A stretch of 64,000 nucleotides of DNA. Source: Bacteroidota bacterium. Lineage in GTDB: Bacteria > Bacteroidota > Bacteroidia > NS11-12g > UBA9320. The stretch spans positions 1 through 64,000 of the forward strand of contig CANIKO010000015.1 in NCBI GenBank assembly GCA_947468275.1, in the 5' to 3' direction. The notes beneath the pieces are model-generated. The model was not told the origin of the DNA and made no database searches. It saw nothing but the letters and a program-made list of their open reading frames with translations. This document shows positions 57,820 to 61,130 of the stretch, piece by piece. The position numbers were made by a program, and so were the translations under genes. How positions within the stretch are numbered: position 1 is the stretch's first letter; every line of letters starts with the position of its first letter.

Positions 57820-57837
57820 GTTCTGCTTGCTTTCCCG

Positions 57838-57855
57838 CAACAAATTAATTTGTTG
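57838..57855. promoter_or_regulatory. perfect 18-bp palindrome upstream of the restriction-modification gene
   Basis: CAACAAATTAATTTGTTG is self-complementary over all 18 bases. It lies 34 bp before a -7 box and 59 bp before the pseudogene start, so it could be an operator, or part of a weak transcription stop after the SirB1-type gene. Confidence 0.35.
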
Positions 57856-57888
57856 ATTCTTTTCGGAAATAGGTATTTAGCTTAATTA

Positions 57889-57896
57889 TATATTTG
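57889..57896 (+). promoter_or_regulatory. -7 box of the MmeI-like gene
   Basis: TATATTTG lies 18 bp before the ATG at 57915. The only TTG upstream is 33 bp away, so the match is partial. Confidence 0.4.
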
Positions 57897-57914
57897 AAGG
57901 GTTAGAATAAGCTA

Positions 57915-60659
57915 ATGGCATTAAGCTGGAATGAAATAAAAGACCGAGCATTAAATTTCTCAAAGGAATGGGCGGATACTTCAAACGAAGAAGCAGACGC
58001 AAAACCATTTTTAGTTGAGTTTTTTAATGTGTTTGGTATTAGGAGTAAACGTGTTTCAACTTTTGAACACAGAGTAAAAAAATTGGACGACAAAGACGGT
58101 TACATTGACTTGCTTTGGAAAGGGACGATTTTAATTGAAATGAAAAGTCGGGGAAAAAACCTTGACCAAGCATATCAACGTGCCATTGACTGCACTCACG
58201 GACTGTAACAACACGAATTACCGAAATACATTCTCATTTCTGACTTTGAAAACTTTAGACTTTACGACCTTGAAGAAGATAAACACATTGAATTTAAACT
58301 CAACAACCTTGTAAATAATGTTCAGCATTTCGGCTACATTTTAGGTTATCAAAAAAAGGTTTACAAAGAACAAGACCCTGCAAACATAAAAGCAGCAGAG
58401 TTAATGGGTAAACTTCACGACAGACTTGAAGAAATAGGCTACACTGGACATCCATTAGAAGTTTACTTGGTTCGTATTCTGTTTTTATTGTTTTCAGAAG
58501 ACACAACAATTTTCAACAAGCAACAATTTCAAGAATATTTAGAACAGCTGACAGCCGAAGACGGAAGCGACCTTGCATCAAAACTGCAAGAACTTTTTCA
58601 AGTATTAAATACACCAAAAGAAAATCGTTTTAAAAATCTTGACGAGCAACTTGCCGACTTTCCATATATAAACGGAAAACTTTTTGAAGAGAACTTGCCT
58701 ACGGCAAGTTTCGACACAAAAATGCGTCAAGCCTTGCTTGACTGCTGTTACATTGATTGGAGTAAAATTTCGCCAGCAATTTTTGGTTCAATGTTTCAAA
58801 GCGTAATGAACCCAAAAGAACGCAGAAACTTGGGGGCACATTAAACAAGCGAAACCAATATTTTAAAACTTATCAAACCACTTTTCTTGGACGACCTTTG
58901 GAAAGAATTTGAAAGCATCAAGGATAACAAAAATAAACTTCCCGAATTTCATAAAAAATTAAGCACTCTTAAATTCCTTGACCCTGCTTGTGGTTGCGGA
59001 AATTTCCTTGTAATCACTTACCGAGAATTGCGTTTATTGGAATTAGAAATTTTAAGAGCATCAAATAAAACAGGACAACGAGTATTTGACGTTAGAGAAA
59101 TAATTCACCTTGACGTTGATATGATGTGCGGAATTGAATATGAAGAATTTCCTGCAAGAATTGCCGAAGTTGCAATGTGGCTTATCGACCACCAAATGAA
59201 TATGCAAATAAGCAATGAGTTTGGACAATACTTTGTTCGTTTACCACTGAAAAAATCTGCAAAAATTATTCACGCAGACGCATTAGAAACTGATTGGGAA
59301 AACGTTGTTTCAAAAAATGAACTTTCATTTATAATCGGAAATCCGCCTTTCATTGGTTCTAAAATAATGAAGCAAAGCCAACGTGACCAAATTGTAAAAG
59401 AATTTGATAATGCAGACGGAAGCGGAGTTTTAGACTATGTAACAGGCTGGTATATTAAAGCAGCCAAATACATTCAAAATATAAAAATTAAAGTGGCTTT
59501 TGTTTCTACAAACTCAATTGTTCAAGGAGAACAAACGAGTATACTTTGGGGACAAATGCTCAATAAATACAAAATCAAAATTCATTTTGCTCATCGAACT
59601 TTTAAATGGAGCAACGAAGCAAAAGGAAATGCAGCAGTTTATTGTGTGATAGTTGGCTTCGCCAACTACGATACTAATAGCAAGAGCATTTTTGAATACG
59701 AAGATATTAGAGGTGAAGCTCACGAAATAAAAGCAAAAAATATCAATCCTTATTTAGTTGATGCAAAGGATATTTTTGTTGGCAAACGCAGAAAACCTAT
59801 TTGCAATATTCCAGAAATATCATTTGGCAGTATGCCAAATGATGGCGGAAATTTTCTTTTCACAGACGAAGAAAAAAACGCATTTATTGAACAAGAACCG
59901 AAAGCGGAAAAGTTTTTCAGTCCACTCATTTCAGCTCACGAATTTCTAAATGGTCATAAACGTTGGTGTTTATGGCTTAAAAATGCAAATCCAACAGATT
60001 TAAAAGAAACAAAACTTGTAACTGAAAGAGTTGAAAATGTTAGAAAACTAAGAGCTGAAAGCAATAGACAAGCAACACAAAAACTTGCATCTTTTCCAAC
60101 TCTTTTCGGGGAAGATAGACAACCCGATAGCGATTATGTTTTAATTCCTCTGCATTCTTCTGAGAATAGGAAGTATATACCGATGGGGTTTTTTAATAAA
60201 AATTCAATTGCAAATAATAGCTGTTCTTTTATTCCTAATGCAAAACTTTATCACTTTGGAATTTTAATGTCAGCTATTCATATGGCTTGGGTTAAAAATA
60301 TGTGTGGTAGAATTAAAAGTGACTATCGTTATTGAAACGAATTGGTTTATAACAATTATCCTTTTCCTGAAAACCCTAACGACAAGCAAATAAAAGCCGT
60401 AGAAACAGCAGCACAAAAAGTATTGAATGCAAGATTAGAATTTCCAAAAAGTTCTTTATCTGATTTATACGACCCGTTGACAATGCCGCCAGCATTGGTA
60501 AAAGCACACAACGAGTTAGACAAAGCAGTAGACATGGCTTACAGACCGCAACCGTTTACAAGTGAAGCCAACAGAATGGTTTTTCTTTTTGAACTTTACG
60601 AAAAATATACAGCAGACCTTTTTACAAAAGAGAAAGTGAAGAAAAGTAAAAAGAGGTAA
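57915..60659 (+). pseudogene. MmeI-like (type IIL) restriction-modification enzyme broken by three in-frame stops
   Basis: One reading frame of 915 codons covers the whole enzyme, with stops at codons 98 (TAA, 58206-58208), 310 (TAA, 58842-58844) and 807 (TGA, 60333-60335) and no frameshift. Domains in order: N-terminal nuclease with D65 and E75-M-K77 (PD-(D/E)xK), a helical spacer (about 140-310), an N6-adenine methyltransferase with LDPACGCGNF (355-364) and GNPPF (about 475-479), a target-recognition region (about 590-800) and a C-terminal helical domain (807-914). The family cuts and methylates DNA with one polypeptide. The stops fall in GL-stop-QHELPKY, LGAH-stop-TSE and YRY-stop-NEL, where K, Y and S are expected. 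As written it cannot make a full enzyme. Confidence 0.88.
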
Positions 60660-60735
60660 TTAAATTTTCTACACCAACTTCACCTTCGCAAATTTTAATA
60701 CCAACTGCTTTTCTCTAATATTCCGAACAAAAGCC

Positions 60736-60852
60736 AATCCCAAAGGGATTAAATGTTTATAGATTTTCTGAAGGTTTGTAAGGTTCGACCCCGAAGGGGT
60801 CGAATAGCTCTAATGATTATTTTTTCTATAAATATTAGAACCCTATGGGTTC
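60736..60852. repeat. three palindromes spaced exactly 51 bp apart
   Basis: AATCCC-AAA-GGGATT (60736-60750), TTCGACCCC-GAA-GGGGTCGAA (60784-60804) and GAACCC-TAT-GGGTTC (60838-60852) have centres at 60743, 60794 and 60845. They share the CCC-three bases-GGG core but differ outside it. The spacers are AT-rich and not identical. There is no gene between 60660 and 61130. Confidence 0.7.
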
Positions 60853-60954
60853 ATTTTTTTAAAGCTTTTTAAACTAATTTCACTGCTGATTTTAGTTTTT
60901 ATATATTAAACATTACAAATTTAAAAGGCAATATATTTAAAGTACTTTTGTGGT

Positions 60955-60975
60955 GGGCCAATCGCTGATTGGCCC
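60955..60975. repeat. GC-rich palindrome after a promoter-like box
   Basis: GGGCCAATC-GCT-GATTGGCCC, a perfect 9 bp stem. TACTTTTG stands directly before it (60943-60950). Confidence 0.55.
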
Positions 60976-60983
60976 GACCCTAT

Positions 60984-61009
60984 AAAAGGCAGTCAACAGG
61001 CTGCTTTTT
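60984..61009 (+). terminator. terminator-like hairpin in the intergenic patch
   Basis: AAAAGGCAG (60984-60992) pairs with CTGCTTTTT (61001-61009) with one bulged base, ending in a T-run. Further small palindromes follow at 61051-61064 (TCGTGT-CC-ACACGA) and 61081-61100. Confidence 0.4.
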
Positions 61010-61130
61010 GTAGTTAATATGGTTTAGGGTAATTGCCCCCACGCCTTGCTTCGTGTCCACACGATGCAATAATTAGTTCCGATTCGTGAAGACATGAATC
61101 AGGGCTAAAGAATTATAAAAACTCAAAATT

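Follow-up and report, generated by a model that had tools for sequence, protein, structure and literature searches.

The MmeI-like gene and its in-frame stops

The window, i.e. the whole 64,000-nucleotide stretch of contig CANIKO010000015.1 that was analysed, contains on its forward strand an MmeI-like restriction-modification gene whose frame (57915-60659) has stops only at 58206, 58842 and 60333 in addition to the terminal one. The following features are present.

57915..60659, + strand: MmeI-family (type IIL) restriction-modification pseudogene; single frame, 915 codons including the terminal stop
57945..58433, + strand: MmeI_N (PF20464), Pfam; divided by the stop at 58206
58107..58145, + strand: D-x9-E-x-K nuclease motif, codons 65-77, by motif pattern; intact
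58206..58208, + strand: in-frame TAA, codon 98, within the N-terminal nuclease domain
58449..58685, + strand: MmeI_hel helical spacer (PF20465), Pfam
58842..58844, + strand: in-frame TAA at codon 310, close to where the methyltransferase domain begins
58911..59693, + strand: MmeI_Mtase (PF20473), Pfam; DPACGCGNF (codon 356) and NPPF (codon 476) intact
59763..60332, + strand: MmeI_TRD (PF20466), Pfam; profile match runs up to position 193 of 207, where the stop falls
60333..60335, + strand: in-frame TGA at codon 807, towards the end of the target recognition domain
60378..60623, + strand: MmeI_C (PF20467), Pfam

The four pieces between the stops match the five Pfam MmeI domains in order, each above the curated cut-off, bearing out the original prediction of an MmeI-like gene in one frame with three stops. 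The order of nuclease, helical spacer, N6-adenine methyltransferase, target recognition domain (TRD) and C-terminal helical domain is that of the family, and the nuclease and methyltransferase motifs of MmeI-family (type IIL) enzymes are present, including D-x9-E-x-K, which we take to be the catalytic motif in MmeI. The single uninterrupted polypeptide that marks the family is lacking here, as the frame is broken three times. Adenine methylation of one strand and cleavage at a distance are further marks of the family. PADLOC model PDLC03598 (REase_MTase_IIG) is the top model for all four pieces, and the third piece matches MmeI chain 5hr4_C over residues 316-811 of the chain (E 2.8e-180). The gene thus shares domain order and size with the type IIL enzyme MmeI (PDB 5hr4), with 914 codons here and 919 residues there, but differs from it in the three stops. 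No further copy of the MmeI-like gene was found in the same genome.

PMC4833311 sets the MmeI domain limits at 1-155 (nuclease), 156-300 (spacer), 301-620 (methyltransferase), 621-825 (TRD) and 826-919 (C-terminal bundle). With near-equal numbering assumed, these limits place the stops in the nuclease, at the methyltransferase start and near the TRD end. None of the pieces contains both the whole methyltransferase and the whole TRD.

Homologs at the interrupted codons

We compared the gene with 88 homologous loci (L031-L118, the best 80 of 309 loci on genome contigs together with eight on viral contigs), of which 81 are near full length, having a best match with query start at or below 10 and end at or above 870. 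None of these 81 has a stop at any of the three interrupted columns, each of which is a sense codon in 81/81. On alignment, then, intact homologs have sense codons where the window gene is interrupted, the pattern of a pseudogene. The stops had been placed in well-conserved strings at codons for K, Y and S; this holds for codons 310 (Y) and 807 (S), both conserved in 81/81, whereas codon 98 (K in 67/81) is less conserved than was implied.

Stops at other places occur in four of the 81. L061 (codon 540) and L090 (codon 817) have one clean in-frame stop each without a frameshift, L096 has a stop near its end (902), and that of L076 lies in a poorly aligned C-terminal stretch. A phylum-wide search with the methyltransferase domain only gave matches above the cut-off in 203 of 395 genomes, with one internal stop in each of five among the matches listed; because this search is blind to all three window stops, it was not used as a base rate for stops. 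On a Leptospiraceae MAG contig, two MmeI-like genes are found in direct succession, the second of which (L110:4350-6680) has one stop.

The closest homolog among the best 80 of 309 and the eight viral loci is L031, from a MAG (Bacteroidales bacterium isolate C15_metabat.bin.17). It is 92% identical to the window gene and of the same length, but has no stop and has different neighbours. The alignment of the two spans 914 codons and contains 0 gap codons, in agreement with the prediction that there is no frameshift, and they differ at 157 codons silently and at 70 non-silently, three of the latter being the stops. The eight matching loci on viral contigs reach 75% identity at best; three of them (L111-L113) are MmeI-like genes, 70-75% identical, on contigs that IMG/VR classes as viral. 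A plasmid source was considered and set aside: the third piece has matches in 325 plasmid records, none of which reaches 60% identity.

Probable gain of the block and estimated age of the loss

The gene lies within a larger segment that is missing from a congener.

57820..61128, no strand: block absent from congener G005, in which both flanking matches lie 5 bases apart

In G005 5 bases separate the transglutaminase-like gene (protein 97% identical) from the 3' end of the outer-membrane gene, and the window has 3,309 bases at this junction. The outer-membrane gene is represented in G005 by a remnant of only the last ~54 codons of the window's version (L189:5804-5970), beside the transglutaminase-like gene. 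Among the six other genomes of the genus, G001 alone has a homolog of the MmeI-like gene, in two parts at the ends of two contigs and beside other genes. No match to the block was found beside the transglutaminase gene in G001, G002 and G004 in the stretches compared, and in G003 and G006 this gene is partial or at a contig edge. The block ends have only short, chance-like repeats and no other repeats or target-site duplications. As a 3.3-kb block is missing from a congener at the same junction, the gene was probably acquired and then lost, and both events probably took place within the genus; comparison of the junctions suggests gain in this lineage as a simpler reading than loss in G005.

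The age of the loss was estimated with a branch codon model (eight genes, FastTree topology, optimiser capped at 40-60 iterations). Omega on the window branch is 0.079 versus 0.057 for the background, a separate omega gaining 0.2 lnL, and a wholly neutral window branch (omega = 1) is worse by 37 lnL units. As the branch is about as constrained as the remainder and neutrality throughout the branch is rejected, the loss appears to be very recent, as had been proposed. The best neutral tail is ~0.003 with all codons (a gain of 0.31 lnL) and 0 without codons 363-440. A tail of 0.006 costs 0.78 or 1.86 lnL, respectively, and one of 0.01 costs 3.8 or 5.4 lnL relative to no tail, giving an upper bound of ~0.006-0.008 at 2 lnL units. 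These branch estimates are approximate since the gene looks mosaic: the segment at 59015-59215 (~codons 367-433) diverges from L031 far more than the rest, two adjacent 100-nt bins holding 32 and 21 differences, a pattern suggestive of recombination with a different MmeI-like gene.

Conserved positions are nearly intact. Only four of 265 highly conserved positions are changed, two being stops and two being codons 89 and 93; when 76 homologs were each left out in turn, between 0 and 10 such changes were counted, with 1 in L031. By parsimony, slightly more missense change falls on the window branch than on that of L031, with 19 versus 14 polarised missense changes and 10 versus 5 changes at columns that do not vary among the others. 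A stretch of 45 nt (codons 85-98) holds four of the 15 unique changes (P 0.024, for a cluster picked after it was seen), and this cluster ends in the first stop. Judged from these comparisons, the loss is a young one and the beginnings of decay are weakly visible; at such an age the complete lack of indels is unsurprising.

The number of stops can be set against the same estimates, with ~14-16 missense changes expected per nonsense change under neutrality. A tail of 0.003 predicts 0.6-0.7 stops and a probability of 0.13-0.15 for at least two further ones; for a tail of 0.006 this rises to 0.35-0.39, and it falls if the tail is shorter. A short neutral tail therefore allows two further stops (P 0.13-0.39), such that neither selection nor recoding is needed. 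Without codons 363-440 the best fit has no tail and no further stops are expected, so that there are somewhat more stops than the missense changes would lead one to expect, and a mild excess of stops is possible. The original reading of three clean nonsense codons as something out of the ordinary is not well supported, two of the 81 homologs also having one clean in-frame stop.

Explanations for the three stops

We conclude, with a probability of roughly 0.8, that the locus encodes a type IIL (MmeI-family) restriction-modification enzyme, built from a single gene, that came by horizontal transfer and lost its function very recently. The gene would have been gained by horizontal transfer and then inactivated by the first stop, which presumably removed the nuclease and methyltransferase together, as both sit in one polypeptide; the cell would consequently not have been left with a cutter lacking protection. 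The other two stops may then have accumulated as neutral changes ahead of any indel. The more unusual readings are not needed and keep a small probability; the locus is best read as an ordinary young pseudogene of a known enzyme family.

It is rather improbable that the three stops arose as local errors of the consensus or the assembly and that the gene is intact in the living strain. Such errors would account for a gene that is otherwise strongly constrained and free of indels, and for a cluster of unique changes that ends in the first stop. However, the assembly has 32 contigs, a completeness of 99.26% and a contamination of 0.02%, and the part of the genome that was scanned does not show a comparable rate. 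We listed pairs of open frames of at least 70 codons separated by a stop across the window and 20 further stretches of 20 kb each (464 kb in all); this list replaced an earlier hexamer-score scan that was judged too strict because it also missed the three known stops. There are 45 such pairs, three in the MmeI-like gene and 42 outside, whereas three stops per 2.7 kb would predict hundreds, and the proposed technical effect is excluded, as a genome-wide error of this density, by the 400-kb sample. When 10 of the 42 outside pairs were read by eye, nine were two genes or not clearly coding and one was a possible interruption. The latter is a putative outer-membrane protein gene with one in-frame TAA (L207:1179; G000:C4 near 101179), and its interruption is unproven since there is only one partial match in the six other genomes of the genus.

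We regard it as scarcely credible that the stops are read through, or that the pieces are separate subunits, and that the gene still works. The branch is under constraint and the pieces follow the domain order, although MmeI_N is interrupted by the first stop and the TRD loses its end to the third. Against this, the stops are common to none of the 81 homologs, and the first start codons lie 65, 14 and 2 codons after the stops. Recoding likewise finds no support in the tRNAs: all 33 found among the 150 of 316 candidates scored have sense anticodons, with TTA, CTA and TCA absent from a list that is incomplete and has no tRNA-Asp.

Selection is also a very unlikely cause; in this reading the gene would have entered a host whose sites were unmethylated, and repeated inactivation would have been favoured there. 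The block appears to have been acquired and the missense load is somewhat low for the number of stops, but once the first stop was fixed later stops would presumably add no gain, and the short neutral tail suffices. A related version, in which a transferred gene is inactivated under selection very quickly, with several nonsense changes preceding missense decay or indels, is given only a slim chance; if true, such loci would provide a measure of the speed at which naive hosts rid themselves of type IIL enzymes.

A limited literature search found no report of this case. Under the preferred reading of a recently lost, horizontally acquired enzyme, the locus adds a well-dated case in which a lone-strand restriction-modification gene was gained and soon lost, and loss by one stop would be painless for this type, with cutter and protector built as one protein. 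Knowledge of these enzymes is unchanged by the pseudogene. The homologs L061 and L090 resemble it in clean nonsense without a frameshift, but have one stop each. Early stops also switch type IIG genes of Helicobacter pylori, although those reported in PMC3936762 arise by revertible homopolymer frameshifts, whereas those of the window gene are substitutions. At the start of the contig (62-149) there is a tRNA-Ser (TGA) gene, and contig C24 carries another tRNA-Ser (TGA) at its end, which looks as though both contigs had been broken at a repeated tRNA.
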